Assembly (NCBI RefSeq): GCF_006517275.1
Contig: NZ_CP041191.1
Span: 3,653,001 to 3,717,000, forward strand
DNA length: 64,000 nt
Source: Labrenzia sp. PHM005
Lineage (GTDB): Bacteria > Pseudomonadota > Alphaproteobacteria > Rhizobiales > Stappiaceae
Direction: 5' to 3'
Below, in pieces: positions 28,367-49,022 of this stretch. A model generated the notes under the pieces. It saw only the letters and a program-made list of their open reading frames with translations. It searched no databases and was not told the origin of the DNA. The position numbers and the translations under genes were made by a program. Numbering within the stretch: the stretch's first letter is position 1; each line of letters begins with the position of its first letter.

Positions 28367-29779
28367 TTATGACCAGCCAATGCCGGTGTAGCAGGACGAC
28401 ACAGGAGCGGTTGACGTGATACGGACCAAGTCCACTATCACTGCGTCTTTCTGCCTGGATTTTAGGGCACTCCTTATCTTTGGTTGGTTTTGAGCGATTA
28501 CGATCGTATCTGCCGTTTCTAAAGCCGTTTCCGGTGTTTCCGCCAAATAGGTGGGCAGTGCATCTACAACGGCTTTCAAATGCGGGGCCGCATGGCGCAT
28601 GTAATCGAATTGTTTTTCGATATGCGGTCCAGGTTTGATTGCCGGGTCATAGGCGGTGACTTCAATGCCGTCCTTTTGAAGTGCGGAAATCAGTTCCAGG
28701 ACCGGACTTTCGCGCAGGTCGTCGGTTCCAGGTTTGAAGGCAACACCTAAGATTGCGACCTTCTTTGGCTTCGTGCGCTGGATGAGATCTACCGCCTGAT
28801 CGATCTGTTCGTCATTCGAAGGCAGCAGGGCATCCATCAAAGGAAGATCGACGTCCAGCTCTTTGGCGAGATGGGTCACCGCACGAACTTCCTTTGGGAG
28901 GCAAGACCCGCCAAAGGCAAAGCCTGGCTTCAGGTAGTAAGGGGACAGGTTGAGTTTGGTATCCTGGACGAAGATGTCCATAACTGCATGACTGTCGATT
29001 CCCATCGGCTTGCAAAGACGGCCAACTTCATTGGCAAAACAGACCTTGGTGGCGTGCCAGACGTTGTCGACATACTTCACCAGTTCAGCCACTTCGATGG
29101 AAGTAACAATCGGGTTGGTGTCAACAGGCGCATAGATCTTTGACATAATGTCGGATGTTTTGACATCAGTGACGCCGATGACCGTTTTGGGCGGCGTATG
29201 GAAATCTGAGACCGCTGTACCTTCGCGCAAGAATTCCGGATTGAAGCAGATGCCAAAGTCCTCTCCAGCCAGTTTGCCGGACCATTTCTCGATAACCGGC
29301 TTCATGATGTTCAGTGTTGTGCCGGGTGGGACCGAACACCGAAGAACAACCACATGAAAATCGGCCTTGAAACGCAGCGATTTGCCGATGCTTTTTGCGA
29401 CCGCTTCAATCGCCCTTGTATCGCATCCACCATCTTCATTTGTCGGAGTACCGACAGAGACAAAAGTAACGTCGGTCTCCCGGATGGCTCTGTCCAGATC
29501 TGTCGTCGTTGACAGTGATTTGTCTGCAACGCCTTGCGTCAGCAGATCAGAAAGACCTTTTTCAACGATTGGACTGTGGCCCCATGCGATGGATTCGACC
29601 TTGGATTTATCAACATCCACGCCAACGACTTTGTGACCCAACTTGCTCAGGCAGGCGAGGGAAACGGCACCGACATATCCGAGGCCGATAACGCTGATTG
29701 CTTCTTTGGTTTCGATCGCTTTGAACTGAAACGGTTCGAATTTTTGAGCCCGTTCGACGTTTCCGACATAGACATTCAT
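28367..29779 (-). CDS. algD: GDP-mannose 6-dehydrogenase (AlgD-like)
   Basis: 470-residue NAD-dependent nucleotide-sugar dehydrogenase. The Rossmann motif IGLGYVG is at 31-37, the AlgD-type SPIVEKGLSDLL at about 69-80, and GGSCLPKE with catalytic C293. NVWHATKVCFANEVGRLCKPMG and QDTKLNLSPYYLKPGFAFGGS are much closer to Pseudomonas AlgD (as I recall it) than to UDP-glucose dehydrogenases. It would oxidise GDP-mannose to GDP-mannuronate, the committed step to alginate. It has about 27 extra residues before the Rossmann strand. A sigma-54-type promoter lies upstream (29818-29833). Dehydrogenases for other uronates are the alternative, but the nearby alg8, alg44 and algI homologues favour mannuronate. 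Confidence 0.85.
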   Translation of the reverse strand: MNVYVGNVERAQKFEPFQFKAIETKEAISVIGLGYVGAVSLACLSKLGHKVVGVDVDKSKVESIAWGHSPIVEKGLSDLLTQGVADKSLSTTTDLDRAIRETDVTFVSVGTPTNEDGGCDTRAIEAVAKSIGKSLRFKADFHVVVLRCSVPPGTTLNIMKPVIEKWSGKLAGEDFGICFNPEFLREGTAVSDFHTPPKTVIGVTDVKTSDIMSKIYAPVDTNPIVTSIEVAELVKYVDNVWHATKVCFANEVGRLCKPMGIDSHAVMDIFVQDTKLNLSPYYLKPGFAFGGSCLPKEVRAVTHLAKELDVDLPLMDALLPSNDEQIDQAVDLIQRTKPKKVAILGVAFKPGTDDLRESPVLELISALQKDGIEVTAYDPAIKPGPHIEKQFDYMRHAAPHLKAVVDALPTYLAETPETALETADTIVIAQNQPKIRSALKSRQKDAVIVDLVRITSTAPVSSCYTGIGWS

Positions 29780-29817
29780 TTGACTGCTCCCGTTTGAATG
29801 GACTTGCAGAACAAAGG

Positions 29818-29833
29818 AACAAGGACTGTGCCA
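29818..29833 (-). promoter_or_regulatory. Sigma-54 (-24/-12) promoter of algD
   Basis: Minus strand reads TGGCACAGTCCTTGTT, matching the consensus TGGCAC-N5-TTGC(A/T) with correct spacing; only the C of the -12 GC is changed to T. It lies 39 bases before the algD start. The same core TGGCA-N2-GTCCTTG occurs before alg44 (46637-46652). Confidence 0.65.
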
Positions 29834-30199
29834 TTAGGCTCAGATTTGAAAAATAATATATAAATCAAATTGTTATTGGGAGGTTGGTGTTGTGGCTGCT
29901 TGTTCCGCCATTGCCAATTTTGAAAACTGTATTCCCAAAACAGAAACAAACTTTGATTGACGGCATGGATCGCAAGAGGAGGGGCAGCATTACCAAGAAA
30001 TTCCGGTCCGCAGCAGGATCTATTTATAAAGCAATATCCAACTGCGTTTCCGGCATCAGGTTGGTTGCGAATTCAGAAATCGGATTTTGGAATTGCGAAG
30101 AGTAATACGCTTGGAAGACGCGTCTTAGATGCGCTCGATGCTCATTAACTAATTGAACAAAAACAATTATTACTTCCTTGTATGGGCGGTGTGGCTGAA

Positions 30200-30215
30200 T
30201 GGCCAGGGCCTTGCA
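30200..30215 (+). promoter_or_regulatory. Sigma-54 (-24/-12) promoter of the HAD-like/Nudix pair
   Basis: TGGCCAGGGCCTTGCA: GG and GC elements with the right 10-base interval and a perfect TTGCA at -12; the -24 box deviates at its last two positions. It lies 37 bases before ATG 30253, leaving room for a short leader and the site AAGGAG. Confidence 0.6.
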
Positions 30216-30252
30216 GTGCTTTCTTCAAGATTTCATTCCGAAGGAGAAAGCG

Positions 30253-31095
30253 ATGTTTCCGCAAGCTGTATTCGCACCAATCGGTCAGGTTTCCGGTCCA
30301 GTCATCACACAAGCTATGCCGCGAGGAGAGGACGCCTTTCTCTTTGATTTGGAGGCGCTCCTGTCCAATACGTTGAGTCACATGGACTACTCGTTTGCAG
30401 ACTATCTGCGCGAATTCCTGGATGAGAGGAAATGTTATCTTCTGTCGCGCAACAGCTTCAATGATGCTTGCAGCCGTCTACCATCGAGCGTCTTGAGGAG
30501 ATTTGCAGGCGTATTTGCTTCCTGTGGAACAGAACTTTGGGTCGATCAGCAGCTGGTAGACTGTCATGATCACGCGTTCTCCGATGACCTTTACGAGTTC
30601 GTCGTCAATGTTGTTCGCAAGAGCGCATTTTATGAGCGAACCCCGCCACTCATCGACCAGGGTGCAGCTTGTCTCCGCATATGTTTAGCTGGTGTCCGTG
30701 CGTCTGCTGCAGAGCGCCGGAAATATGAACTTTGGGAAAAGAAGGCCCAGGAATTGCCGGAGATCGTGCGTGAATTTCAGTTCCGCTTTCCAAAGTACGC
30801 AATTTATCAGGATACGGCGACGAGCCTGCTTATTTTGCCTGACAGTTTTTCACTCGTCAGCATTCGCAAGCAAATTGAAACACACCAAAAACCGGCGCGC
30901 TTGATCAGCTATCTGCACGTGAATACAGCGAAAGGGTTTGCCAAGCCTTTGTGCGATGCCTTGCCCCGCACGGATGTTCTTTCAAAGATCGCCGGGCCAA
31001 GCGATGTCAGTCAGCTTTTGAGTTACGAAGTCCGGCGCATGTCGGGACGAGACCCTCTCATACGGTTGCCGGAAAACGCGCGAGAGGAGGCTTGA
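30253..31095 (+). CDS. HAD-like protein, degenerate phosphomannomutase/sugar-phosphatase type
   Basis: 280-residue protein that I can place only by pattern. FLFDLEALL at about 29-37 corresponds to the HAD motif I (FDVDGTL) with the first Asp (D32) kept but the second replaced by Glu. FAGVFASCGTELWVDQQLV and the central stretch ending ATSLLILPDSF line up with the cap and core of eukaryotic-type phosphomannomutase (PMM2) as I remember it. Near the end, TAKGFAKPL (motif III lysine) and AGPSDVSQLL stand where GD..ND..M is expected, so the metal-binding Asp appears lost. ATG 30253 has an excellent site (AAGGAGAAAGCG); the longer frame to 30199 overlaps the sigma-54 promoter. Two bases before the Nudix gene. 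Either a changed enzyme making mannose-1-phosphate or a regulatory relic. Confidence 0.6.
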   Translation: MFPQAVFAPIGQVSGPVITQAMPRGEDAFLFDLEALLSNTLSHMDYSFADYLREFLDERKCYLLSRNSFNDACSRLPSSVLRRFAGVFASCGTELWVDQQLVDCHDHAFSDDLYEFVVNVVRKSAFYERTPPLIDQGAACLRICLAGVRASAAERRKYELWEKKAQELPEIVREFQFRFPKYAIYQDTATSLLILPDSFSLVSIRKQIETHQKPARLISYLHVNTAKGFAKPLCDALPRTDVLSKIAGPSDVSQLLSYEVRRMSGRDPLIRLPENAREEA

Positions 31096-31097
31096 GA

Positions 31098-31670
31098 ATG
31101 GGCTCTCTTTTGTCCAAGGGTTTACCCCTGGATCACTGGGCTGTCCTAAACACCGAAAGGGTGTTTGACGCTGGCAAACGCATTCAAGTCAGCAGACAAA
31201 AGGTCCGCTTGCCGGACAGCCGGGTGGTCGATGACTATTATCAGGTGGAATTGCCGTCATTTGCCACAATCTATGCCGTCAACGAAGCCAATCAGGTGCT
31301 TCTGCTCAAACAGTATAAACACGGCGTAGGCGATGTTTGTCTGACCCTTCCCGGTGGCCAGATAGAAAAGGGAGAGGATCCAGAATTCTCGGCGCGCCGT
31401 GAGATGCTGGAAGAAACAGGTTACGGCGGCGGCCGGTGGTACACTGGGCCGACGCTGGTTCTTCATGGAAACCAGAGAATTGCCCGTGCGCATGTTTTTG
31501 TCGCGCGTCACGTCATCAAACTTAATGAGCCTTCTTCAGGTGACCTTGAAGACACGACGTTGACGACGATGTCGCCATCTGAGGTTCGAACCGCAATCCA
31601 GACCGGAATGATGCCGGTCACATCACATGTTGCGACAGCCGGGATCGCGGACATAATCCTCAATCAGTGA
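31098..31670 (+). CDS. Nudix hydrolase (ADP-sugar/GDP-mannose pyrophosphatase type)
   Basis: 190 residues with a complete Nudix box, GGQIEKGEDPEFSARREMLE then ETGY, at 86-109, and the preceding substrate-side strand (YYQVELPSFATIYAV) typical of nucleotide-sugar pyrophosphatases. ATG 31098 lies two bases after the HAD-like stop and follows GAGGAGG; a longer frame to 30951 is inside the upstream gene. It would split nucleotide sugars such as ADP-ribose or GDP-mannose. Being co-transcribed with a sugar-phosphate-type HAD protein and divergent from algD, a role in adjusting the GDP-mannose pool is possible. Confidence 0.88.
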   Translation: MGSLLSKGLPLDHWAVLNTERVFDAGKRIQVSRQKVRLPDSRVVDDYYQVELPSFATIYAVNEANQVLLLKQYKHGVGDVCLTLPGGQIEKGEDPEFSARREMLEETGYGGGRWYTGPTLVLHGNQRIARAHVFVARHVIKLNEPSSGDLEDTTLTTMSPSEVRTAIQTGMMPVTSHVATAGIADIILNQ

Positions 31671-31975: not shown

Positions 31976-33523
31976 TCAAGATGGAGCGTTCTCTTCCATC
32001 TGATCGATTGCAAAATCCGCGTTAGCCGCTCCCTGATCATCAGGCAGATCTGTTGCCGTTTCGTCTTGAGCGGCCCAAATCTCCTTCTTTCGATAAAGAG
32101 TGGACGGGCTGACCTGCAGAACTCTTGCGGTTTTTGGAAGACTGCCGCCACAGGCGGTGATCGTTGCTTCGATGAGTTGACGCTCCAGAGTTTCGAAGGA
32201 TTGTCCAAGTGCAACCGTGATGGTCGGCCATCCGGCCGGCGCTGGATTATCCGCTATTGCTGAAACAGCGGGTGAAGGCGATACATTTAGGGGAATTGCA
32301 GACGGTGGAGGCGGAGCGGTTGGGGCCCTGGTTTGCATCGCGGAGAGCATTTCCGCCTCGACGATCGGTCCCTCGTTCAGAACCACAAGATTGCGGATCG
32401 TGTTTTGCATTTCACGAACATTTCCGGCCCACCCATGCGCCATCAGTGCTTCTTCTGCTTCTACGGAGAACCCTTCGAACTGCTTTCCTTCTTCTGCCGC
32501 AAACTGGGTTAGAAAGTGCTGGGCCAGCTCGATGACGTCTGCGCCGCGCGCGCGCAGTGGAGGCAGGCTGATCGGCAGAACATGCAGTCGGTAATAAAGG
32601 TCTTCCCGGAACCGGCCAGCTTCAACTTCTTTAAGCGGGTCGCGGTTGGTTGCGCAAACAATCCGGGCGTCCACTTTGCTGAGGGTGTCGCTGCCAACTT
32701 TTTGCACAGTGCCGCTTTGTAGAAAGCGCAAGAGTTTTGCTTGAAGCGACAGTTCCAGTTCGCAAATTTCATCCAGGAACAAGGTTCCGCCATCGGCCCG
32801 TGCCGCGGCGCCTTCACGGTCTGACGTTGCGCCGGTAAATGCGCCTTTCACATGACCAAATATTTCGGACTCGATCAGATCCTTCGGAATTGCAGCACAA
32901 TTGAGCGGGATGAAGGGCTTTTTGGCCCGCGGGCTCGATCTATGGATTGCCTCCGCACAGACTTCTTTGCCGGTGCCGCTTTCCCCAGTGATGAAGACTG
33001 AGGCGTTGGAGCGCGCAACGCTTTCAATCATTTTGTAGACGGCTGTCATGGGCAAAGAAGAGCCAATGAAACCGTGGTTGGCTTTGGAACGGGCCGGCTT
33101 GCGGACTTCTGCCACCACTTCGGTGAGCGTCTCGCGCTCCATCGCGTTTCGTGTAGTGGTCACAAGCCGTTCTTCAGCAACCGGCTTCACAACAAAATCG
33201 TAAGCGCCAGCTTGCATGGCTTCGACGGCTGTTTTGATGGAGCCGGAACTGGTAACGACCACAACCGTTACTGGGAGTTGTTCTTCCCGGATTGTGATCA
33301 GGACCTCAAAGCCATTCATGTCCGGCAGTTGTAGATCCAGAAGGACGACGCTAATGCCGCCTTTACGCAATCTTGAGAGGGCTTCTGCACCGGTTTCGAC
33401 ATGCAGTGTATCCATGCCCGCCCGGGAGAGCTGGTGCTCATAAATGGTTGCCAATGAAAGAGCATCTTCAACAATCAGAACTTTCAACTCAGACGTTCCT
33501 CCCTGATTGATCTGGGAAATCAT
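31976..33523 (-). CDS. NtrC-family sigma-54-dependent response regulator
   Basis: 515 residues in the classic order: receiver domain (phosphoacceptor D63 in LLDLQLPDMNG, K113 in VVKP), AAA+ domain with Walker A GESGTGKE at 180-187, the sigma-54-contacting GAFTGA loop at 227-232 and Walker B GGTLFLDE at 245-252, and a Fis-type helix-turn-helix at the C-terminus (LPKTARVLQVSPSTLYRK). It activates RpoN promoters. It is coupled to the hybrid kinase gene by ATGA, so the two form a two-component pair. Three nearby -24/-12 matches in the polysaccharide locus are obvious candidate targets, similar in logic to AlgB control in Pseudomonas. Confidence 0.93.
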   Translation of the reverse strand: MISQINQGGTSELKVLIVEDALSLATIYEHQLSRAGMDTLHVETGAEALSRLRKGGISVVLLDLQLPDMNGFEVLITIREEQLPVTVVVVTSSGSIKTAVEAMQAGAYDFVVKPVAEERLVTTTRNAMERETLTEVVAEVRKPARSKANHGFIGSSLPMTAVYKMIESVARSNASVFITGESGTGKEVCAEAIHRSSPRAKKPFIPLNCAAIPKDLIESEIFGHVKGAFTGATSDREGAAARADGGTLFLDEICELELSLQAKLLRFLQSGTVQKVGSDTLSKVDARIVCATNRDPLKEVEAGRFREDLYYRLHVLPISLPPLRARGADVIELAQHFLTQFAAEEGKQFEGFSVEAEEALMAHGWAGNVREMQNTIRNLVVLNEGPIVEAEMLSAMQTRAPTAPPPPSAIPLNVSPSPAVSAIADNPAPAGWPTITVALGQSFETLERQLIEATITACGGSLPKTARVLQVSPSTLYRKKEIWAAQDETATDLPDDQGAANADFAIDQMEENAPS

Positions 33524-36500
33524 GTGTTAAAATTTATGTCGATCCCAATCTTGTCGGCCAGTGCTTTGACTTCCGTTAATGTACGCTCACATGTTTCCTG
33601 AAGTTCATCAACTTTCGCCATGGCGGCAACGGAATTGTTGTTTTGCGCGAGCAAATTGATCTCAGACGCAATCGTGGTGAGTTCACCGGCGCCAAACGTA
33701 CCGGCAACGCTTTTCAAAGCGTGTGTCGCCCGCTCCAACATCTCGAGATCATTGTTTTCGACGGCGTCACGTGCAGCCGATTGCCGTTTCAAAGTGTCCT
33801 CCACAAATTGACGAAGCAGTTTTGACTGCAGGTCCGTCGGCATCGTTTTCAATATGTCCTGCGCGGCTTGCAGCGTCTGAGTGGAGTGGTTTTCAGCTGT
33901 GCTGCGTGAAATCTGGTCCGTCGATTGAATGTTTTTTGAAATGCATGCCAGAAGATCTTCTTTTTCCACGGGCTTGGCCAGGAAATCCGTCATTCCGGCC
34001 TCAATGAACCGTTCCCGGTCGCCGCGCAAGGAATAGGCCGTCAAGGCGATGATTGGTGTTTTGGAATTTCGATCGCCTTCCTGGATCTTTTGGGTCGCTT
34101 CAATGCCGTCCATTTCAGGCATTGAGATATCCATCAAAATGCAATGGTAGTCCCGGTTCTGTGCGGCAGCCACGGCTTCGCGGCCGTTGTTGGCGATGTC
34201 GATGTCACAGCCAGCTTGGGCGAGGGCATGGCTAACGACGATCTGGTTGGTGGCATTGTCTTCCGCCAAGAGAACCACCAGTCCCTCCGGAAGTGAGGCT
34301 TCTCCCATGTCTTGTGGAGCGAGTTTTTCGGGAATTTGTTTTTCAGACAACTGGATGGGCACTGTGAAGTGGAACGTGCTGCCCGCACCCGGCAGGCTCT
34401 CCAGCGTGACTTCGCCCTGCATAAGGGCCGCGATTTGCCGGCAAATCGCCAGTCCAAGACCTGTTCCGCCATGTTTCTTGGTGTAGCTGCTATCGACTGT
34501 GACGAAATCGCCGAACATCTCGTTCTGCCGGTTTTCCGGGATCCCGACCCCCGTATCTTTTACGGAAAAACGGAACGTTGGCTTGTAAGGATGATCCTGT
34601 TCCACACTGACCGAAATCTCGACGGATCCGAGCTCCGTAAACTTGATTGCATTGGATACGAGGTTGAGGATGACCTGTCGTAGCCGGCCCGCGTCACCGA
34701 CAACATTTACCGGAATGCTTTCGGGATAATGCAGGCTCAGATTCAAACCTTTTTCTTGGGCGGTTGGCTGGAACAAATCGACGACACTGCGGACAACCGA
34801 TTTCAGGCGGAAGGGAGTCCTCTCCAGTTCCATGCGGCCCGCCTCCAGTTTGGAGAAGTCCAGGATGTCGTTGATCAATTCCAAAAGCGACCGGCCAGAT
34901 TCCCTAGCCGTTTTCACATAGGCCGATTGTGCGGGATCGAGGTCGGTGTCCCGCAAGAGACTTAGAATTCCGAGGACTCCATTCATGGGGGTGCGGATTT
35001 CGTGACTCATCATGGCAAGGAACTTGGCTTTCGCCTCGTTGGCCGCTTCTGCCTTTTCCTTGGCTTCCCTTAAGGCCGCATCTGCTGCCTTTCTCTCGGT
35101 CACATCGCGGACGTAACCCAAAAACAGCGGACCGTCCGAACCTTGCGTATGCCGGATTGCCAATTCAACGATGATTTCGTGGCCATCCTTGTGCAGGCCT
35201 TCAATTTCAAATCGTTTCCCAAGAACCGGGCCGTCACCGGTTTCCATGAATTTCTTCAAACCCGTGTCATGCGCATCGCGGTATTTTTCGGGAATAATCA
35301 TGCTGGACATTTTCTGGCCCACAACCTCTTGAGACGTCCAGCCAAAGACGTCTTCAGCTGCGGGGCTGAAGTCCAGCACGGTGCCGTTGCCATCCATGAC
35401 GATGACACCGTCAAACGAAGCATCGACGACGTTCCTGAGGAGATCTTCACTGCGGCGCAGGTCTTCTTCGCGGTGTTTTAACTCCGTGATGTCGACCCTG
35501 AATCCGACCAGGCCACCTTCGCTGGTCCTGGATTCAATGACCCGCAACCACCGGCCGTCATCCAAGTGCTGTTCCATCGGCGTGCCCGGATTTACGTGAT
35601 GATCCATTCTGGCGGCAATCCAGTCTTCCAGATCCTCTTTGGGAACCTGATATTGCCCTCTATTGGCACCTTCTCTGATGATGGATTCAAACGTCCTGCC
35701 TGGTTCAATGAGATCTGCACTGCTGGCGTAGAATTCGCGGTACTTCTTATTGCAAATGACCATCCGGTCGTCCTTGTCATAAAGGACAAAGCCGTCGGGT
35801 AGGGATTCGATGGCATCGATCAGGCGTGTTTCGGCCTGCCGGAGTTTTTGTTCCGCGAGTTTTTGATTGCTCAAGTCCCGAAAGATGGCCGTGTAGTTGT
35901 CGGTCTCTTCTGTTGGAGCTTCTGAGAGGGACATTTCAACCGGGTAGGTATCACCCCCGATCCGCTTTCCAAGCGTTTCAAACCGGCCATCTTTGGAAAC
36001 TGCGGCAGCTTGGTCTCCGTTGCAGCAAGCAAAGGGGAGGTTGGTGTCTGCGATATCCGGCAGGATCTCAGTGATCAATTTGCCTTTCAGCTGACCCGGT
36101 GTTTGCGCTCCGAACATGGCAAGTGCTGATTTGTTAACGTTGCGGATTTCGCCGTCCGCATTGATTGTCAGGAGACCATCCCGCATGGTGTCGAGGATGG
36201 CGCCGACCTGCGCTTCTCCGACTTCTGCCCGGTGGATGGCTGATTGAAGTTCTGCGTTCTTTTCCCGCTCAGCGTCTGCCAGGTCGGCAACGCGTTGCAC
36301 GGCTCTTTTGCGTTGTTTGGACAGGACATAGGTCAGAGAAAGCGCGGCACCGAACGCAACGATCAGAAGAAAAACGAGATTGTTTGTCTCCCCAAGTCCT
36401 GATCCATAAAACGAAGACGCGGGTATTGAAACGGCCTGAATGCCCCGAATATCCCCGACTTCCCAATCGGTCTTGGGCGAGGATTCATGTGTGTTGTGGC

Positions 36501-37092
36501 AGGCAACACAGCTGCCTTCCATTTTGACCGCGGTCGCACTTCTGTAGACAGATCCGTCGCCCGTGTCTTCGAGCCGTTCAAATGGTCTGTCGGGGTTTTG
36601 TTGAATGGCGGACAGCGCTTCGATCTCGAAATCATCCAGCTGCCGGTCAGTGCGCCACGGCCAGGGATAATCCGATAGCATCCGGATGCCGCTTTCTGCG
36701 CCGGTATCCTTCAGTTCTTCTTCAAGTGCCAGCGTCATTGTAACGGGCGCTGGAATGGTCAAATCCCGGCCGTGAAAATCATGACTGACCTTCACATCGT
36801 CTGATGAATAGAGCTTGTCGACAACTTCGCGCGAATAAAACGAGCGGGTTGCAGACAGGAGTTCGGACTGCGCTCTTGCTGCCGCTGAAAGATCTGCAGT
36901 CCGGACCTTCTGGCCAAGATCGACGGCCAGCACATAGGCTGCGATTGCCGATGCGGATATGAAAATCAAAACAAGCCAGAAGGTGGCGTCATGGCTTAAT
37001 TCCCGAACAATTTTCTGCATGGTTCGATTTTCTCGCCTGTGGTCTTCTGGGCCGTCGCTTAAGCCGAGGTCAGTTTGCATATGCTTGCTCAC
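33520..37092 (-). CDS. Hybrid histidine kinase with heme c-type sensor domain, several PAS domains, receiver and Hpt
   Basis: 1190-residue membrane sensor. After the first membrane helix (about 37-57) comes a periplasmic DUF3365/Tll0287-like domain with a c-type heme motif CVACH at 195-199, then a second helix (about 238-256), a coiled coil (about 262-295) and four PAS-type domains (about 295-690). The HisKA box is FLAMMSHEIRTPMNG (about 690), then HATPase (NLVSNAIKFT, DTGVGIP, GGTGLGLAIC), a receiver domain (about 940-1055, MDISMPEMDG) and a C-terminal Hpt domain (ATHALKSVAGTFGA). GTG 37092 and ATG 37080 are both possible starts. It probably senses redox, NO, CO or oxygen via heme and passes phosphate to the coupled NtrC-type regulator. 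Confidence 0.9.
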   Translation of the reverse strand: MSKHMQTDLGLSDGPEDHRRENRTMQKIVRELSHDATFWLVLIFISASAIAAYVLAVDLGQKVRTADLSAAARAQSELLSATRSFYSREVVDKLYSSDDVKVSHDFHGRDLTIPAPVTMTLALEEELKDTGAESGIRMLSDYPWPWRTDRQLDDFEIEALSAIQQNPDRPFERLEDTGDGSVYRSATAVKMEGSCVACHNTHESSPKTDWEVGDIRGIQAVSIPASSFYGSGLGETNNLVFLLIVAFGAALSLTYVLSKQRKRAVQRVADLADAEREKNAELQSAIHRAEVGEAQVGAILDTMRDGLLTINADGEIRNVNKSALAMFGAQTPGQLKGKLITEILPDIADTNLPFACCNGDQAAAVSKDGRFETLGKRIGGDTYPVEMSLSEAPTEETDNYTAIFRDLSNQKLAEQKLRQAETRLIDAIESLPDGFVLYDKDDRMVICNKKYREFYASSADLIEPGRTFESIIREGANRGQYQVPKEDLEDWIAARMDHHVNPGTPMEQHLDDGRWLRVIESRTSEGGLVGFRVDITELKHREEDLRRSEDLLRNVVDASFDGVIVMDGNGTVLDFSPAAEDVFGWTSQEVVGQKMSSMIIPEKYRDAHDTGLKKFMETGDGPVLGKRFEIEGLHKDGHEIIVELAIRHTQGSDGPLFLGYVRDVTERKAADAALREAKEKAEAANEAKAKFLAMMSHEIRTPMNGVLGILSLLRDTDLDPAQSAYVKTARESGRSLLELINDILDFSKLEAGRMELERTPFRLKSVVRSVVDLFQPTAQEKGLNLSLHYPESIPVNVVGDAGRLRQVILNLVSNAIKFTELGSVEISVSVEQDHPYKPTFRFSVKDTGVGIPENRQNEMFGDFVTVDSSYTKKHGGTGLGLAICRQIAALMQGEVTLESLPGAGSTFHFTVPIQLSEKQIPEKLAPQDMGEASLPEGLVVLLAEDNATNQIVVSHALAQAGCDIDIANNGREAVAAAQNRDYHCILMDISMPEMDGIEATQKIQEGDRNSKTPIIALTAYSLRGDRERFIEAGMTDFLAKPVEKEDLLACISKNIQSTDQISRSTAENHSTQTLQAAQDILKTMPTDLQSKLLRQFVEDTLKRQSAARDAVENNDLEMLERATHALKSVAGTFGAGELTTIASEINLLAQNNNSVAAMAKVDELQETCERTLTEVKALADKIGIDINFNT

Positions 37093-39047: not shown

Positions 39048-40556
39048 TCAGAAATTGAAGTAGATGAACTCGGTCATTTCTGCGAGCCGATACGTTTGGA
39101 TCAGAGCGATGCCAAATAGGATCGAGACGCCCAAGGCCCATTGTGGTGACGGCTTCCAGCGGATCGGCAGGAAGTTTTCCGATTTCCGTTGAGACAGCAG
39201 TTTTTTAAGACCCAAAACGGGGTTGTAGTTCTCTGTCAGTTCGATGGAGTTCGGCAGCAGGAAAACAATCGCAGCAAGTGCAGTCATGGCGGCCCAGACC
39301 GGCATGGTTCCTGTTGCGAAAGCTTCCCAAAGCTTGGGTTCGTAGACGGTGGAGTAGCCTGTCATTCCGGCCAGGATGTTGCTGGCCCCGTCGAAACTTT
39401 CCGCACGGAAAAACACCCAAGCAACGATCACGGCCAAAAGTGTGAGGCCACGGCTAACGAGAAGCGCTGCAGGCCGCGGAAGTATGTTTGGCACATACCC
39501 TTTTTCAGAAAGAGCAGACCAGCCGTGATTGATGGCCAAATAAGCACCGTGAAGACCACCCCAGAAGACGAAGGTCCAGCTCGCTCCATGCCACAGGCCG
39601 CCGAGCAGCATGGTCACCATCAGATTGGCATACCGGCGAACCGGCCCCGAGCGGTTGCCACCGAGCGGGATGTAGAGGTAGTCGCGCAGGAAATGCGACA
39701 GGGTGATGTGCCAACGGCGCCAGAAGTCGGAGATGTTGGTCGCTTTGTAAGGTGAGTTGAAGTTGACCGGCAGGCGGATGCCGAAGAGGCGCGCCAGGCC
39801 AAGGGCCATATCGCAATAACCGGAGAAGTCGAAGTAAAGCTGGAAGGTGTAGGCGAGGGCGCCAATCCAGGCCGCCTCCAAAGGTACGCCATTTGTGGTC
39901 TCGGCCAGCGCAAAGACACTGTTGGCGTAGGGAGCAATTCCGTCCGCCAAAACGATCTTCTTGAACAGCCCAATCGCAAAGAGCGTGCTGCCAACCGCGA
40001 GGTTCAAGACCAGTTTGTTCTGGAAGACAGGCAGCCGGAATTGCGGGATTGTCTCCTTCTGCATAACGATCGGGCCGGCGATCAATTGCGGAAAGAACAC
40101 CACAAAGAGCATGTATCGCGGAAAGTCGCAGTGTGTGATGTTGCCCTTGTAGGTGTCGATCAGGAACGAAATCTGCTGGAAGGTGAAGAACGAGATCGCA
40201 AGCGGCAGCACCAGGTGCAGCATTGGGAAGTCGGTTCCGGCAAGAAAGTTGGCGTTACCAATAAAGAAATCGGCGTATTTGAAGATCGCGATCAAGCAGA
40301 GGTTAAAGACTATCCCGACCGTGAGGAGGTAGCGGTCCGGATATTTCCGCAAAGTGCGGTGGAAGCCAAAATTGACGGCAACAGAGCCGAGCAGAAGCGG
40401 CAGATAAATGGGCGTCCACCAAGCATAGAAAACCAGGGACGCGATGGTTAGCCACCAGATGATGCCGTTTTCCCATCCCCAATGACGCAGCAGCAGATAG
40501 CCGAGCAGAACCGGCGGCATAAAGAGATACATGAATTCGAGGGAACTAAAGACCAT
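39048..40556 (-). CDS. algI: MBOAT membrane O-acyltransferase (AlgI-like)
   Basis: 502-residue polytopic membrane protein with about ten helices. Family blocks: FDFSGYCDMALGLARLFGI, NISDFWRRWHITLSHFLRDY, YIPLGGNRSG and GGLWHGASWTFVFWGGLHG, the last with the catalytic histidine. AlgI passes acetyl groups across the inner membrane for O-acetylation of mannuronate residues. It lies three bases after the AlgK-like gene. MBOAT proteins of this type also occur in acetylated cellulose and other loci, but the neighbouring Alg8/Alg44/AlgK set favours an alginate-like product. Confidence 0.9.
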   Translation of the reverse strand: MVFSSLEFMYLFMPPVLLGYLLLRHWGWENGIIWWLTIASLVFYAWWTPIYLPLLLGSVAVNFGFHRTLRKYPDRYLLTVGIVFNLCLIAIFKYADFFIGNANFLAGTDFPMLHLVLPLAISFFTFQQISFLIDTYKGNITHCDFPRYMLFVVFFPQLIAGPIVMQKETIPQFRLPVFQNKLVLNLAVGSTLFAIGLFKKIVLADGIAPYANSVFALAETTNGVPLEAAWIGALAYTFQLYFDFSGYCDMALGLARLFGIRLPVNFNSPYKATNISDFWRRWHITLSHFLRDYLYIPLGGNRSGPVRRYANLMVTMLLGGLWHGASWTFVFWGGLHGAYLAINHGWSALSEKGYVPNILPRPAALLVSRGLTLLAVIVAWVFFRAESFDGASNILAGMTGYSTVYEPKLWEAFATGTMPVWAAMTALAAIVFLLPNSIELTENYNPVLGLKKLLSQRKSENFLPIRWKPSPQWALGVSILFGIALIQTYRLAEMTEFIYFNF

Positions 40557-40559
40557 GAC

Positions 40560-41783
40560 TTACCCCTCCTTCTGATCATCGGGGTTTAAGGGAGACCGCT
40601 CGATTGCCGTCACATTTGGCTGATCGGCTTGCATCAAATCTTTGAGGAGGTTTTTGCAGCCGACGTGACCTCGATCCGCCCCTTTTTGGGCAAGTTCGAT
40701 CGCCTTGGAACGGTCCTGACTAAGAAATGTGCCGGTGGCATAAAGCCGGGCGAGTTCTTCCATCGCGCCGGGATGACCGACAGCGACACTGCGCTCCAGC
40801 AGATCAACAGCCTCCACCGGATCGAGGCCGTACTCTGATTTTAAATGCAGACGTGCAAGGGAAGTCAGGGCACCGCCGTGTTTTGCCTTGGCGCCGAGGC
40901 GCAGCCATTTCAAACCTTCAGTAGCTTCGCTGGTCTTGCCGCCGCTGAGCAGCAGATGCCCCAAATCATGCATGGCCCCGGCATCTCCGAGCTCCGCGGA
41001 CCGCAAAAACCAGGTCTTTGCCTGGGTATGATCTGCATGCAGAAATTCGCCGTCGCGATAGATGCGGCCAAGGGTTTTGGCTGAGCTTGCAGACCCGTCA
41101 CGGGCTTTTCTTTCCAAGCCTTCGATCGCTTTTGCAGCCCAGAAACGGGCTTTGTCTAGATCCGGCGTTGACCCGTAGCGGCCTGTCAGGAGAATGCGGG
41201 CGTAATTAATCGTCGAGGACGGATAGCCGGCAATCGCGGCCTTTTCATAATGATGAAATGCCAAATCCAGATCACGTTCGACGCCAATGCCGCGTTCAAA
41301 ATGTTTGGCGAGTTGCACATGGGCTTTTGGGTAATCCCATCCAAGGGCTTTTTGAAACCACTGCAAAGCGATTTCCGCGCAGTGTTCTCCGGTTGACCGC
41401 TGAAACAGGCGGCCAAGTTCGTAAGCAGTTTCACCGCGATAGGCGAAAGCGTATTTGACCGCTTCCAGAAAGATCAGACGGGCTTGATCGAGGTCTGCCT
41501 CCACACCCCAGCCATTCTTGTAAGCTCTGCCTAGATGATAGAGTGCGGTCGGGTGCCCATCGTTTGCGATTTGGGTTAAAAGATCGGCTGCGGCTTCCCA
41601 GCGGCCGACTTTTTGGAGGCCCCGCGCTTGCTTGAGCATTTCTTCAATGGATGGATCGATTCGGGCTGATTGGGACTTGCGTTGAGCCGGTGTGTCGATC
41701 AATGCCACCGTGCCTGATACACCCAGGATCGTACCAAGAAGCAGTAGCTTCCAAAGCATTGGTTTTGTCGGTGCTTTTTTCAT
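40560..41783 (-). CDS. algK: Sel1/TPR-repeat protein (AlgK-like)
   Basis: 407 residues: an N-terminal membrane anchor (LWKLLLLGTILGVSGTVAL) and a chain of Sel1-like repeats, for example TALYHLGRAYKNGWGVEADL, ALTSLARLHLKSEYGLDP and AMEELARLYATGTFLSQD. AlgK is the periplasmic scaffold of the alginate secretion complex. Unlike Pseudomonas AlgK, which is an outer-membrane lipoprotein, no lipobox cysteine follows the hydrophobic segment, so this version is probably anchored in the inner membrane or cleaved. Start overlaps the small upstream gene by ATGA. Confidence 0.78.
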   Translation of the reverse strand: MKKAPTKPMLWKLLLLGTILGVSGTVALIDTPAQRKSQSARIDPSIEEMLKQARGLQKVGRWEAAADLLTQIANDGHPTALYHLGRAYKNGWGVEADLDQARLIFLEAVKYAFAYRGETAYELGRLFQRSTGEHCAEIALQWFQKALGWDYPKAHVQLAKHFERGIGVERDLDLAFHHYEKAAIAGYPSSTINYARILLTGRYGSTPDLDKARFWAAKAIEGLERKARDGSASSAKTLGRIYRDGEFLHADHTQAKTWFLRSAELGDAGAMHDLGHLLLSGGKTSEATEGLKWLRLGAKAKHGGALTSLARLHLKSEYGLDPVEAVDLLERSVAVGHPGAMEELARLYATGTFLSQDRSKAIELAQKGADRGHVGCKNLLKDLMQADQPNVTAIERSPLNPDDQKEG

Positions 41784-41989
41784 TGTGGTGGCTCCACGAA
41801 ATCAAAGGTTGCGTAGCGAATCTCAATCATTTGCTCCTCATGAACGTGGCCGCGATCCAATAACCAATCGATCATCTTCAGATCATGGTTGAGTGAGTCT
41901 TCTGGCCCCATGAGGCTTGCGCCGATGACCATGCCAATGGCGAATCCGATTAGGCCGAGCAAAGTGTCTTCGACAATCCGTCTAACCAT
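41780..41989 (-). CDS. Small membrane protein of the polysaccharide operon
   Basis: 69 residues: MVRRIVEDTLLGLIGFAIGM, a glycine-rich membrane helix (about 9-29), then a charged soluble tail ending FDFVEPPQ. It overlaps the SGNH gene by 8 bases and the AlgK-like gene by ATGA, a placement that strongly supports translation. Preceded by GGAGGCAAGTCA, a good ribosome site. I do not recognise the family. Its position suggests a small subunit or stabiliser of the synthase/secretion complex. Confidence 0.75.
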   Translation of the reverse strand: MVRRIVEDTLLGLIGFAIGMVIGASLMGPEDSLNHDLKMIDWLLDRGHVHEEQMIEIRYATFDFVEPPQ

Positions 41990-43289
41990 TGACTTGCCTC
42001 CATATCCGGCAGTTCTGGCCTTCAATGAGCTGAAGGGTTCCGTGTGTTCGGGTTTCAGAAATGTCTTCTTGGCGAACCGGGCATGCGAGGCCGGATCGGC
42101 GTTTCAATGCCAAGGCTGTAGAGGCACTGTCAGAGGTGATGATCTGCAGAAGTTCGCCCACAATCCGGCGGGCCGGTGTCGATCCGAAATGATAAGCGTC
42201 TGTGAAGTTGTTGAGGTCCCGGGTGAAGGGCGTGTCGAAATCTAGGTCGACGACAGGTGCCAGGGTCGATAGGCGGTCCCGGAATTGGTGATTGGCACCA
42301 TTCAGTCCGAAGTCCGCGATCCGGCGCTGCATTTCTGAGATCGTTGGCGGGATCAGAAATATCAATTGAACGCCATTTTCATCAGTCCAGTCTGCGATTT
42401 CTTCAATCTTCGCCCAAAGGTCATCGGATTCCTTAAAACGGCGCCAATCGGCCGCTCCGTTGGTTCCGACCTGCTTGGCAAAAAGCTGAGGTAGATCGCG
42501 GTCGAGGTCGATGCGCGGCCAATAGGCTCCCCATAAGCCGAGGCCGATACCGTAGCCGCGATGGAGGACCGGGAGGATAAGTTTGCCAGGAGGAGTCTTG
42601 AGAGCACATTCGTCGCAAAGTGCTGGGTCGAGCAGGGCGTCAAGAGACAACTGAGAGGGCGCGGTGAAATCGGCAGCTTCTGCTCTTGCGACACTCAGCA
42701 AAGAGATTCGGTCGAACGCAGCAAATGCTTCTGGAAATTGGTCCTCCAGAAGACGCCATCCGGTCTTTGCAACAAACCAGTTTGAATAATAGCTGAATGG
42801 ATTTTCAGCAAGCGAGATCGCTTCTGGGACGCGGTTCATACCGCCCTTGAACCTGGCATCCATACTGCGCAGCGGCAGGCTGATGATCAGGGTTTCAAGG
42901 TCCGCGTTTTCCTTCAAGTATTGGAAGGTGTCGTAGATCTCGTAAACTGTCGCTCCGCCATACGCGAAATTGTAGACATCGTTCCGGCCAAGCTCTTGCC
43001 AGTATTTGTCCTGCAGCGCACGCGCCCGGCTGTCCCCAAGAATGACTGTCGGTGCCTTGATCCTGGGATATTCGATCATCTTGTAAAGCGGGTAGTGCGC
43101 CTTGACGCTGATCTCTTTTTTGTTGAGGCCAAGATCGACAAGTTTGTTGTGATCAAATGAGTCCACGATTGCATTAAAAGCGATCGGAGCCAAAGCGGCC
43201 AAACCCGTCAGAGCCATTGCTGCCGTATAAAGTTTTGGTTTGAACCTCATTTGAAACACCCCGATCAATTGCTTTTCAGGGAGTGACAT
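41982..43289 (-). CDS. SGNH-hydrolase-like membrane-anchored protein, possible polysaccharide O-acetylation factor
   Basis: 435 residues (or 422 from ATG 43250) with one N-terminal membrane helix (about 18-42) and a periplasmic SGNH-type domain: ILGDSRARAL with nucleophile S87 and DAYHFGS near residue 366 providing Asp and His. In AlgJ and AlgX, as I recall them, the Asp-His pair comes before the serine; here the serine is first, so this is not a straightforward AlgJ or AlgX but a protein in their position. It may acetylate the polymer together with AlgI. Operon neighbours are Alg8 upstream (144 bases) and the small membrane protein downstream (overlap). Confidence 0.75.
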   Translation of the reverse strand: MSLPEKQLIGVFQMRFKPKLYTAAMALTGLAALAPIAFNAIVDSFDHNKLVDLGLNKKEISVKAHYPLYKMIEYPRIKAPTVILGDSRARALQDKYWQELGRNDVYNFAYGGATVYEIYDTFQYLKENADLETLIISLPLRSMDARFKGGMNRVPEAISLAENPFSYYSNWFVAKTGWRLLEDQFPEAFAAFDRISLLSVARAEAADFTAPSQLSLDALLDPALCDECALKTPPGKLILPVLHRGYGIGLGLWGAYWPRIDLDRDLPQLFAKQVGTNGAADWRRFKESDDLWAKIEEIADWTDENGVQLIFLIPPTISEMQRRIADFGLNGANHQFRDRLSTLAPVVDLDFDTPFTRDLNNFTDAYHFGSTPARRIVGELLQIITSDSASTALALKRRSGLACPVRQEDISETRTHGTLQLIEGQNCRIWRQVNG

Positions 43290-43433: not shown

Positions 43434-45026
43434 CTATGCCGATACGCCAAGCACATGGAATATCATCCGGCTGCTTGGCGGTTCGATGAGCCCGGCCATC
43501 AGGCAGACACCGACAAAAAGTATGGTGACGTAAAGCAGAGTCAGATATCCGGCCATCAAGTTTTGCAATGTTGCGATCAATCCATCGCCTTCGCCTGCGC
43601 GTTGATCTCCCCGGTTCGACCAGCGTTGTTTGGAGAGACGGAAAATACAGTACACCTTCACTGAAGCATTGATCAGCTGGTTGAAATAGAGAATGAACGG
43701 ATAGCTGAGATCCACCTTGCGGGCATATCGATACAAAAACAGCGACAGCAGCATGCGGGTGATGCAGATGAAGACAACATAACCAAAGATATAGAAGGGA
43801 TCGAACAGCACGGTTGTGCAGACAGCCAGAACCGGGCTGACCAGCATCGTCCACATGGAGACCCGCTGGTCCAACAGGCACCACCAGATGAAAAACGGCA
43901 TCCGGCCGGGCCCGAGCGCCAAAGCGCGGCTTCCGTTACGCAGCATGTTGCCGGACCAACGGCGGAAATTCTGCACCATCCGATCCATGCCGGAGCCTTC
44001 GATCACCTCGACCGTGTAGCCCATGGCATCGGGCACGTAGAGCATGCGGCAACCGGACTGCAACATGAAGTACCAGGTGCTTTTGTCATCGCCGGACAGG
44101 AATCTGAATTTGCCCCAAAGCCAATGTTCCAAGTGATCGGCTTCCAGCAGGCGGATGAATTTCAGTTTGGTGAGATGATTGGCGCGAAAGACCGACATCC
44201 GACCCGTCAACGTAAGAACGCGACCGGACAATGAGTGTGATTGCATCGCCAGGCGGCGCTGGGCGAACCGCATCGTCAGCCAGTTTGCTATCCAGCGCGG
44301 GCCGATACACAAGACTTCTTCATCCGTCGTACAGGCTTGTAGGTCTGGGTAGAGCTTGAACAGCGGCAAGCAGGCGCCGACTGCATTCTTGGCAAGGATG
44401 AAATCTCCGTCCATGAAGATAATCAGATCGTCGTCTTCAACGTCGCCGCGGCTCATTGCCCTGAGGACAAGGCCAATTGCGAGCCGTTTGCCAGGCTGAT
44501 TTTGACGAACAACATGCAGTGTAACGGCTAGGTCAGGCCATTCCCGGATCAGGAGATTTTCAATCAAATCTTCATCATATCTGTCGCCAGAGCCGAGCCA
44601 GATGGTTCCTGGAACGCCTGCATCACGTATTTCCCGGCAAATCGAGCGGATGACTTTTTCCGTGATGTCCCGGTGTTCTTTGTAGGTGGTCATCATGAAA
44701 TGCAGATGCCGTGGCCGCCAGCCGTCCGCCCATACTTTCTTGCCGGCATCGCGCATGGACGGATAGACAAACCGGCCATAGATCCAAGCCCGGACAGCAT
44801 GGGTAAACCACCAGCCGTAGCGCCAAATTCCAAGAAGGCCGATCACAAGGGTAATTTCCTTGGTCGACGGACTGAAAAACACGTTTTCAAAGGTCGTCAG
44901 GCCGACAAAACACAGACCGAAATACAAGGTGATCTGAAACAGGGCGAACGGTGTCCACTTGTTCAATCCCTTCGGCTGGTCGGTGATTTCGTCGACGATA
45001 AAACTCTGATGCTGGCGCTGAGTCAT
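43434..45026 (-). CDS. alg8: Mannuronan synthase-like glycosyltransferase family 2 (Alg8-like)
   Basis: 530-residue processive GT2 enzyme. N-terminal helices, then the cytoplasmic catalytic core: MMTTYKEHRDITEKV, donor-binding FMDGDFIL, GDD at SGDDKSTWY, and the product-binding NFRRWSGNMLRNGSRALALG which closely recalls the Alg8 sequence. C-terminal membrane helices form the export channel. It would polymerise GDP-mannuronate into beta-1,4-mannuronan. It overlaps the Alg44-like gene by ATGA. A different uronan or hexose polymer cannot be excluded, but AlgD and Alg44 homologues in the same locus fit alginate. Confidence 0.88.
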   Translation of the reverse strand: MTQRQHQSFIVDEITDQPKGLNKWTPFALFQITLYFGLCFVGLTTFENVFFSPSTKEITLVIGLLGIWRYGWWFTHAVRAWIYGRFVYPSMRDAGKKVWADGWRPRHLHFMMTTYKEHRDITEKVIRSICREIRDAGVPGTIWLGSGDRYDEDLIENLLIREWPDLAVTLHVVRQNQPGKRLAIGLVLRAMSRGDVEDDDLIIFMDGDFILAKNAVGACLPLFKLYPDLQACTTDEEVLCIGPRWIANWLTMRFAQRRLAMQSHSLSGRVLTLTGRMSVFRANHLTKLKFIRLLEADHLEHWLWGKFRFLSGDDKSTWYFMLQSGCRMLYVPDAMGYTVEVIEGSGMDRMVQNFRRWSGNMLRNGSRALALGPGRMPFFIWWCLLDQRVSMWTMLVSPVLAVCTTVLFDPFYIFGYVVFICITRMLLSLFLYRYARKVDLSYPFILYFNQLINASVKVYCIFRLSKQRWSNRGDQRAGEGDGLIATLQNLMAGYLTLLYVTILFVGVCLMAGLIEPPSSRMIFHVLGVSA

Positions 45027-46600: not shown

Positions 46601-46636
46601 TGGTGCTTCCCTTGATGTCGCCGGTATCCGGAGAGA

Positions 46637-46652
46637 CGCAAGGACAATGCCA
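46637..46652 (-). promoter_or_regulatory. Sigma-54 (-24/-12) promoter of the alg44 operon
   Basis: Minus strand reads TGGCATTGTCCTTGCG: five of six bases of the -24 box and TTGC at -12 with exact spacing. It shares TGGCA-N2-GTCCTTG with the algD promoter. It lies 36 bases before the GTG start of alg44. Confidence 0.7.
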
Positions 46653-46842
46653 GTTGTTTTTGCTTAGGAAATCCAAAGCCGCCAGTTTTTGATATCAGTC
46701 CAAGTAGCTGAAATAATAGATTATATTCAAATTGGCGTTCGCGGAAATAATTTGGGATTTGCAAAATTGGAAACCGGACTGCCGGCAGGCAGGAGGTCCA
46801 AGTTTCCCATTTTGCAAAGACGTAAGCGTCGCATCTGATAAT

Positions 46843-46871
46843 CCGGCCGCGACTTTGAAGGTCACGGCCGG
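46843..46871 (-). terminator. Hairpin after the RTX gene
   Basis: CCGGCCGTGAC and GTCGCGGCCGG (minus strand) form an 11-bp stem with one G-T pair around a 7-base loop, starting 12 bases after the RTX stop. No long T run follows, so termination may be partial, but the next operon has its own promoter. Confidence 0.55.
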
Positions 46872-46883
46872 GCTATTTCTTGA

Positions 46884-49022
46884 CTAAAAAATGAAGCAGT
46901 CATTTTCGAACAAGGTGGTCACTGTTTCGTTGTCCGCATTGTTGAGAATACAGACATCCGTATAGGCACCGCCTCCCGACAAGTCCGCAGACAGTGTCAG
47001 GTTCCCGCTCTCAGACGAGGACTGAAGGCGGGACAAAAACGTCTGATCGTCTGTGCTGCCAGCCAAGTGGCTGAAGTCCAGAAGGTCGATGCCGATCTCA
47101 AAGTCGGTAATGACATCAGCTTCATCCAGATCGTAGGTTCGGAACACGAAGGTGTCGCTTCCGGCTCCGCCGGTCAGGGTGTCCGCACCCTGCAACGACC
47201 GGATGGAATCGTCGCCGGCGCCGGCCTCGATCACATTGACTCCTCTCGATCCCTTCAACGTATCATCACCGCCTCCCGAGACGATGTTGTCGATGAACCT
47301 GATGGTGTCGGTTCCAATCTCCAGCCCGTGGGCCCGTGCGTTGTGAAGCGATACAGACAGGTCAACGTCAAAGGCGGAGTAATCGACCGTGTCATTGCCA
47401 CGGCCGCCGTGCATCATGTCATCGCCAGCATCGCCGAAGAAGACATCATCGTCATGGCCGCCATAGAGGCTGTCGGCGTTGTTGCCGCCACGGAGCTCGT
47501 CATTGCCAGCCCCGCCTCGGATGGTGTCTTCACCATATCCGCCGGTCAGGACATCATCGCCTGATCCGCCAATGAGGCTGTCATCGCCATCGCCACCATC
47601 AAGCTGGTCGTTGCCAGCTCCGCCTGTCAGGTCATCTTCTCCATTCCCTCCAGTTAGAATGTCGTTGCCGGCGCCGCCCACGAGTTCGTCGTTGTCGTTT
47701 CCGCCGTCGAGCTGATCATTCCCAGCACCGCCGCGGAGTGTATCGTTGCCATATCCACCCAGTTGGACATCGTCGCCGGACCCGCCGATCAGAGTGTCAT
47801 CCCCATTCCCGCCTTCAAGATAGTCGTTGCCGGTGCCTCCGATCAGGGTGTCATTGCCAGCTTCACCGTAAAGAGCGTCGTCGCCATTGTTGCCGTTCAG
47901 ATTGTCATCATGGTTGCCGCCGTAGAGGTGATCATTGCCGGAGTTGCCATAAAGGTTGTCCTGGCCCGCGTTGCCGTTGAGTTCGTCATTGCCTGATCCG
48001 CCGTGAAGGTCATCGTGACCATTGTTGCCGGATAGGTCGTCGTCACCGGAGCGTCCGTGCAATTCATCAGCGCCGTCGCCGCCGATCAGAACATCATTGT
48101 CGGAGCGTTCGATTTCGTCGACATTATTGCCGTTTCCCGGCTCAGGTTCTGGATCGCTGCCGTCCGTTTCCTGCTGATAGTGTGCGTTGAGAACGAGGGC
48201 GTTCGCCAAACCGATATCGACCGTAAATACGCTGTCGTCGAAATCTCGGTCGCCGCCATTGTAGAGGTCCTCGAAACCAAGGGTAATTGTACCGGCGTCG
48301 GCTTTCAGAACGCCCGTAGTGTGCAGGATCCCATCCGGGTTGAGGTCGGCGGTCTCCTCAAAGGCTGCCGTGTGGTAGGCATGTGTGCGGATCCAGGTTT
48401 CCGAGCCATCGGCCGCAATATGATAGAGCTTTGGTCCGTCGCTGTGGATCGTTGCCTGGTTGCCGTCATCGTCGCGGAATACCAGTTCTGGAGCATTTTC
48501 CGTATCTTGTGTGACATCGAGGTCCAGGCCCTGGTAGCCGTTGTTTAGGCTGTAGCCGTTGGAGATGATGAAAAAGCCGATCCGGTCGCCGGCCTCAACA
48601 TCCAAAAACTCCCGGCTCTCGCCTTGAACCAAATCTCCGCCGCTGCCTTGCAGGGAGGCATTGGGCCAAAGGATCTCGACATCGGTGATCAATCCGTCGT
48701 CCTGGACCTTGTAGTCGCCGAATGTGTTGCGGTAACCGGCAGTTTCTCCTTCAAACACCACTGACACTGGGTGGTCATCAACAATCTCAATGCCGGTGAC
48801 ATCTATGAGATCCGGTCCGCCGGATCCGTAAAGGATGTCGTTTCCGTTGTTGCCATAGAGTGTGTCATCCCCGGTGCCGCCCCAGACTTCGTCATTGCCG
48901 TTCTGGCCTGTCATGATGTCGTCTCCGAACCGGCCGGACATGACGTCAGAGTGCCGTGTGCCGGTGAGAACGTCGTCTTCGTTTGTGCCGATCATGGGGC
49001 GTGTTGCAGGCAAGCTTGCCAT
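46884..49022 (-). CDS. Secreted RTX (hemolysin-type calcium-binding repeat) protein with DUF4114-like domain
   Basis: 712 residues, no Sec signal. RTX nonapeptides (GGxGxDxLx) occur in a short N-terminal block (about 20-70) and a long block (about 310-560), e.g. [20 protein letters not shown]. Between them is a DUF4114-like domain with [20 protein letters not shown]. The extreme C-terminus ([16 protein letters not shown]) could be a type I secretion signal. There is no mannuronan epimerase catalytic domain although RTX modules occur in AlgE-type epimerases. It lies at the upstream end of the polysaccharide operons; a calcium-binding matrix protein that binds an acidic polymer is plausible. 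ATG 49022 is chosen (AAGAAGGAG eight bases before); GTG 49031 is also in frame. Confidence 0.82.

Follow-up and report, generated by a model that had tools for sequence, protein, structure and literature searches.

The canonical alginate operon of Pseudomonas and Azotobacter has the gene order algD-8-44-K-E-G-X-L-I-J-F-A, and in its regulation AlgB provides a parallel to control by an NtrC-type protein. "Atypical" alginate operons of environmental bacteria, which are without the outer-membrane transport (algKE) or modification genes, have also been described (Bundalovic-Torma et al. 2020, PMC7112194), and are the nearest published report to the locus considered here. A further comparable system is that of the rhizobial mixed-linkage β-glucan, in which the synthase BgsA adjoins the HlyD-domain protein BgsB, likely a part of channel formation, and activation is by cyclic diguanylate (c-di-GMP) bound at the C-terminal domain of the synthase (PMC9495663). 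Here we describe a polysaccharide locus of the marine alphaproteobacterium Labrenzia sp. PHM005, contained in a stretch of 64,000 nucleotides (contig NZ_CP041191.1, positions 3,653,001 to 3,717,000; henceforth the window, whose numbering is used throughout). We put at roughly 0.6 the probability that it encodes a c-di-GMP-gated, synthase-dependent system making and exporting a GDP-mannuronate-derived, probably O-acylated, mannuronan-like exopolysaccharide. It is best read as a second-lineage mannuronate-type polymer system of Alphaproteobacteria, perhaps with export via a TolC-type channel.

The locus shares with the canonical operon a GDP-mannose dehydrogenase, an Alg8-type synthase, a PilZ-membrane-fusion protein of the Alg44 type and an MBOAT acyltransferase. 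It differs in the separate lineage of its synthase, a long insert in Alg44, an RTX partner and sigma-54-like sites at three units; furthermore, AlgE and AlgL have no match, its Sel1 protein is not AlgK and its SGNH protein is not AlgJ or AlgX. To our knowledge the β-glucan system lacks AlgD as well as acylation genes and an RTX protein. As that system is described, it resembles the window in having a synthase beside an HlyD-domain protein and a link to c-di-GMP, which in the window is a predicted one, and departs from it in its glucan product and in the c-di-GMP site on the synthase. The atypical operons are like the window in being without algKE or modification genes; the main text of that report does not contain the word RTX, and its passages on these operons name no adaptor insert or sigma-54 regulon. 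In the titles and abstract openings of open PMC papers retrieved by literature searches, this operon type was not found described.

The operon is transcribed in the order RTX, Alg44-like, Alg8-like, SGNH, Sel1, MBOAT, 628-aa protein, hybrid histidine kinase and NtrC-type regulator (Table 1). The algD gene lies 2.2 kb beyond the last of these, separated from it by two opposite-strand open reading frames (ORFs). The genome (two contigs, 6.19 Mb) is of Roseibium type, and a window-type synthase is encoded by 18 of the genus's 37 genomes, with the present one included (matches of at least 86% identity); the synthases of nine Roseibium/Labrenzia records are 89-93% identical to that of the window. 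R. album CECT 5095 and R. denhamense JCM 10543 are among the strains with the operon. Gene order is kept across 17 Roseibium loci (L034-L048, L051, L052), with end genes absent where a contig or fetched stretch ends; apart from such losses the sole exception is L037, which has no match to the 628-aa protein. As the same order is found again in these 17 loci, the cluster is not due to chance. The ORFs recognized in the original prediction, which placed AlgD-, Alg8-, Alg44-, AlgI-, SGNH-, toroid-, RTX- and kinase/regulator-type genes together, are borne out in position, all of them on the reverse strand, with domain assignments of the operon proteins coming from Pfam/NCBIfam models.

The synthase belongs to a separate lineage. 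In a tree of 59 rows the 18 other alginate-type loci (L021-L024, L031-L033, L170-L178, L182, L183) fall on one side of a branch with a support of 96 and the window synthase lies outside it. The 38 window-type rows, taken from 87, form one side with a support of only 43, and the outgroups are too long for a firm root. Among the sequences compared, the nearest kin of the synthase outside its own lineage are the Alg8 proteins of canonical-type loci; the tree speaks to lineage and not to the sugar used. Family models do not settle its class, since NCBIfam gives no Alg8 model match even for canonical Alg8, and a PDB sequence search gave no match with the protein alone and two chance-level matches with its profile.

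Related loci with at least 53% synthase identity come mostly from Alphaproteobacteria, with some from gammaproteobacterial metagenome-assembled genomes (MAGs). The neighbour counts that follow all refer to 80 of these (L053-L132), the best 80 of at least 570 confirmed, and cover labelled neighbour families only. Nine of the loci are from Roseibium/Labrenzia, some are near-copies or come from a single record, and many stop early at a contig border, so that the counts are lower bounds. Clustering of neighbours recovers Alg44 in 76 loci, RTX (any RTX-repeat protein) in 51, AlgD in 48, hybrid histidine kinases in 39, AlgA in 32, MBOAT in 31, Sel1 and SGNH in 25 each, NtrC in 20 and the 628-aa protein in 13. 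Many Rhodobacteraceae loci show the run alg44-alg8-algA-algD-RTX, and several from Hyphomicrobiaceae the run alg44-alg8-algD-RTX. Many of the former (L098-L127) also encode, after this run, a sensor kinase of about 830 residues and a protein of about 180 residues, which replace the NtrC pair.

AlgD is of the GDP-mannose 6-dehydrogenase (GMD) type. Its closest solved structure is the GMD of P. aeruginosa (1mfz, 399 bits), followed by a UDP-glucose dehydrogenase at 259 bits. The two GMD-type proteins share in alignment the catalytic FGGSCLPK segment (role of Cys268 as given in PMC10740432) and the adjoining QD.KLNLS.YY stretch. A tree of 55 rows, from which 18 of 70 had been removed by hand for thinning, places the window protein within an 18-row AlgD set drawn from related loci. 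This set, canonical AlgD and 1mfz stand together, apart from the UDP-sugar dehydrogenases, with a root left unsure by long outgroup branches. The reading of AlgD as a UDP-glucose dehydrogenase is rejected on the basis of this position on the GMD side. Five rows from window-type loci (L069, L070, L085, L090, L092) do not join the other 30 but cluster by themselves, and the row of L175, from a locus labelled canonical, falls on the UDP-sugar side. Of 17 Roseibium genomes with the operon, 16 have an AlgD ortholog (70-75% identity; cut at E 1e-80), the exception being a draft that is 90% complete; of the 19 genomes that are without the operon, eight were tested and none has one. The grouping of AlgD with GMD, together with the AlgA genes near related synthases, indicates GDP-mannuronate as the precursor. 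A route like that of the arabinose polysaccharide of S. meliloti, whose gene content reportedly includes UDP-sugar enzymes, would need such enzymes; none was seen in the operon, and this route was rejected.

The Alg44-like protein has PilZ, a single membrane span and a lipoyl/barrel domain in common with canonical Alg44 (hhalign probability 99.9% over 339 columns), and carries an insert with a median of 147 residues (61-154, 35 window-type rows) versus 0 (0-21, 12 canonical rows). Among solved structures its profile matches EmrA (4.6e-21), LipC (2.4e-17) and HlyD (2.1e-7), as well as an RND fusion protein, which is among the best matches, MacA, AcrA and biotinyl/lipoyl domains. We take EmrA, the RND fusion protein and LipC to be TolC-linked adaptor classes. 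The insert sits where EmrA/HlyD-type adaptors carry a hairpin, and these matches and its length point to a predicted hairpin here, by which the protein may dock on a TolC-type channel; three TolC-type ORFs are present in the genome. The PilZ domain of the window has the RxxxR motif for c-di-GMP, and the family consensus of its second motif is DWSLGG.

The canonical export and processing parts appear largely missing, as had been noted for the window itself. Genome-wide, the models for AlgE (PF13372) and the PL5 lyase AlgL (PF05426) find no match, while they detect their targets in the canonical operon used as a reference (L170) at 3.5e-95 and 7.6e-61, respectively. A single-sequence AlgG query of the genome, a weak test without a positive control, was also empty, and the AlgA said to be lacking has a homolog elsewhere in the genome (C2:4559028). 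The surprise expressed at an alginate locus in an alphaproteobacterium is not supported, as fuller canonical-type loci occur on a plasmid of Loktanella salsilacus (L031) and in a genome of the same genus (G005, L022), and a less complete one is carried by a plasmid of Jannaschia (L032); both plasmids belong to marine Rhodobacterales. These have AlgD, Alg8 and Alg44 like the window; unlike it they contain AlgA and β-helix AlgG-like genes, to which L031 and L022 add AlgI-, AlgJ- and AlgF-like genes. Their Alg8 proteins group with the canonical ones in the tree and are 33-35% identical to that of the window over the alignment. Two genomes of the genus, G005 (L022) and G028 (L024), contain a canonical-clade Alg8 locus in addition to a window-type operon, and hence the two locus types can coexist.

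The MBOAT protein can fairly be called AlgI-like, being 38-43% identical to the MBOAT proteins of canonical-type loci (L021, L022, L031), with H323 and H336 conserved over 34 rows. The Sel1-repeat protein had likewise been termed AlgK-like, an assignment we reject: it scores 27 bits with an AlgK model whose cut-off is 700 and which gives the AlgK of L170 730, and a lipobox pattern occurs in none of 28 sequences; the best match in an AlgK search of the genome has 45 bits. Profile comparison of the SGNH-like protein with AlgJ-like proteins gave a probability of 9.7 (E 0.0033), and the motif order differs, with GDS before DAYH in the former and a D-T-H block before the conserved serine in AlgJ rows. 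Identity with AlgJ/AlgX was accordingly rejected, a verdict that concerns the operon protein only, the genome not having been searched for ALGX. For the 628-aa protein a PDB sequence search returned two chance-level matches with the sequence alone and none with its profile, and Pfam only stray weak matches for 14 aligned members, with no sequence family. The best fold matches of its toroid model include GH105/GH88-type unsaturated glucuronyl hydrolases, GH76 α-mannanases and 2-epimerases; as these lie within about one Z of each other, no enzyme class is claimed.

The RTX protein, whose gene starts with GTG at 49031 and has an ATG three codons inside at 49022, contains 15 glycine-rich calcium-binding repeat stretches, and type I secretion is predicted from its sequence. 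Against the 51 related loci with an RTX gene, only one of the 18 other alginate-type loci (L177) has one. The repeats were found in all seven RTX proteins tested and DUF4114 in five, and four loci have an ABC transporter gene after their RTX genes.

Sigma-54-like sites lie upstream of algD, alg44 and the RTX gene. A pattern less stringent than the strict consensus finds the site in position in Roseibium at 18 of 18 alg44 genes, 16 of 16 algD genes and 16 of 17 RTX genes, with spacers and flanks that are 49-64% identical. With the strict consensus the best site is in place in 14 of 16 algD regions, and 200 bases up in the other two; RTX sites with two mismatches are found in 21 of 25 loci, near-copies counted. 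Outside Roseibium, sites with at most one mismatch precede alg44 in 13/19 loci with an NtrC gene versus 1/48 without, algD in 8/17 versus 0/32 and algA in 6/15 versus 0/17; the figures for alg8 are 0/20 versus 1/51 and for RTX 1/12 versus 3/38. Thus the site accompanies the regulator for alg44, algD and algA, and at RTX it appears in Roseibium alone. These observations suggest that RTX, alg44 and algD form one regulon under the NtrC regulator of the operon. Repeats resembling TTTTGCAAA, detected by eye at 46700-46830 and 49170-49210 upstream of the alg44 and RTX sites, are possible candidates for activator-binding sites.

Table 1. Features of the locus in window coordinates
Feature	Position	Strand	Basis
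algD-type GDP-mannose 6-dehydrogenase	28367..29779	-	structure match, alignment, tree
Sigma-54-like -24/-12 site upstream of algD, TGGCACAGTCCTTGT	29819..29833	-	only 1-mismatch match of the window
NtrC-family sigma-54 activator, receiver domain, GAFTGA motif	31976..33523	-	Pfam/NCBIfam
Hybrid histidine kinase: Tll0287-like, PAS, HisKA, HATPase, receiver, Hpt	33520..37092	-	Pfam/NCBIfam
Predicted exported 628-aa protein, β-rich N part and (α/α)6 toroid C part	37151..39037	-	signal peptide by eye; predicted structure
MBOAT O-acyltransferase (AlgI/DltB-like)	39048..40556	-	PF03062 3.5e-35
Sel1-repeat protein, N-terminal hydrophobic stretch, no lipobox	40560..41783	-	Pfam/NCBIfam, alignment
SGNH-like protein, GDS (85-87) and DAYH (364-367) motifs	41982..43289	-	motif conservation
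Alg8-like family 2 polysaccharide synthase (GT2), outside canonical clade	43434..45026	-	Pfam, locus scan, tree
Alg44-like PilZ-transmembrane-membrane-fusion protein (PilZ-HlyD), periplasmic insert of about 147 residues	45023..46600	-	NCBIfam/Pfam, profile comparison, alignment
Sigma-54-like -24/-12 site upstream of alg44, TGGCATTGTCCTTGCG	46637..46652	-	2 mismatches
RTX calcium-binding protein with DUF4114, predicted type I secretion substrate	46884..49031	-	Pfam, repeats
Sigma-54-like -24/-12 site upstream of RTX gene, TGGCCTTCAACCTGC	49074..49088	-	3 mismatches to consensus

The two forward-strand ORFs between the operon and algD, divergent from the latter, encode a 298-aa protein with no Pfam match (30199-31095) and, overlapping it, a NUDIX protein (30951-31670). 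Relatives of the former (21-27% identity) adjoin six related synthase loci (L060, L061, L067, L074, L078, L129), and it may therefore belong to the system. On the other side, ordinary haem uptake genes on the reverse strand (49335-53413; ABC ATPase, FecCD permease, binding protein and HemS) adjoin the RTX gene.

Based on these family assignments, GDP-mannose from the AlgA enzyme encoded elsewhere would be converted by AlgD to GDP-mannuronate, which the Alg8-like synthase would polymerise across the inner membrane, with the PilZ domain of its Alg44-like partner as the putative on-switch. The chain would be acylated by the MBOAT and SGNH proteins, and might be trimmed or modified by the periplasmic toroid protein. 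In place of AlgK, AlgX and AlgE, the Alg44-like protein with its long insert may dock on a TolC-type channel. The calcium-binding RTX protein would be produced alongside the polymer, probably as a partner in its matrix, and the kinase and NtrC-type regulator would jointly switch on RTX, the alg44 operon and algD from sigma-54 promoters. A bolder version, in which this second alginate-type lineage uses a c-di-GMP-sensing co-polymerase that is itself a type I-secretion-like adaptor opening into a TolC-type channel, polymer and RTX protein leave by related routes, and a joint sigma-54 regulon has its own phosphorelay, is tentative and in our estimate well short of even odds.

Several observations weigh against the interpretation as a mannuronan-like system of this kind. 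The operon itself is without a TolC gene, and the Alg44 insert is merely 61 residues long in two of the 35 window-type rows. The second PilZ motif of the window is DWGLGG and not DxSxxG, and by pattern match 65 of 79 members of the Alg44 cluster have RxxxR and 56 the second motif. The window has 49 sigma-54-like matches versus a chance mean of 44, with no excess, and hence the case for the promoters rests on position and conservation; the 97-100% identity of the boxes is partly by construction, as the sites were found by pattern. MBOAT genes outside Roseibium also have upstream sites of at most one mismatch in 3/14 loci with NtrC versus 0/9 without. Clustering of the RTX proteins is partly driven by the repeats, and their N-terminal domains vary between groups. 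Moreover, identity between the synthase and the canonical Alg8 rows is no more than 31-35%, and the synthase lies outside their clade; consequently its sugar could differ. A different acidic polymer, made from another nucleotide sugar beside or instead of GDP-mannuronate, would suit both this distinct lineage and a toroid whose best folds include unsaturated glucuronyl hydrolases as well as α-mannanases, but we consider it distinctly unlikely given that, among the labelled neighbour families, the recurrent sugar-nucleotide genes near the related synthases are those of AlgD (48/80) and AlgA (32/80). The original suggestion of a rewired alginate or mannuronan pathway, or a related uronate polymer, thus survives as a reading through the AlgD class and AlgA neighbours. 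The phylogenetic check proposed with it gave a divided answer, as AlgD groups with GMD and the synthase lies outside the Alg8 clade, though canonical Alg8 is its nearest kin.

The homology of AlgD, Alg8 and Alg44, and the existence of published atypical operons without algKE or modification genes (PMC7112194), would also fit an ordinary alginate locus with lost or scattered epimerase, porin and lyase genes and export by an unrecognised AlgE-like porin. This appears unlikely, as the separate lineage of the synthase retains a distinct set of partners across many taxa, the AlgE and PL5 models are without match in the genome, a large extra Alg44 segment is present in 35/35 rows, and the Sel1 and SGNH proteins are not canonical AlgK and AlgJ/X. 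It is very improbable that the RTX gene and algD lie near the synthase pair without being linked to it and that this pair is the whole core: the distance of algD past two opposite-strand ORFs and the variable N-terminal domains of the RTX proteins would allow this, but all three units have sigma-54-like sites in Roseibium, algD tracks the operon (16/17 versus 0/8), and alg44-alg8-(algA)-algD-RTX runs recur in Rhodobacteraceae and Hyphomicrobiaceae.

The regulation of the mannuronate-type system favoured here is directly testable by virtue of the three conserved sigma-54-like promoters. If its polymer is mannuronan, alginate-type synthesis would have two branches. The one described here, which marine roseobacters share with Hyphomicrobiaceae, Defluviicoccus and some gammaproteobacterial MAGs, would have an export simpler than the Pseudomonas machine. 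It would then offer a tractable case for studying how a synthase can move its polymer past two membranes when AlgE is missing, and why a calcium-binding RTX protein accompanies it.

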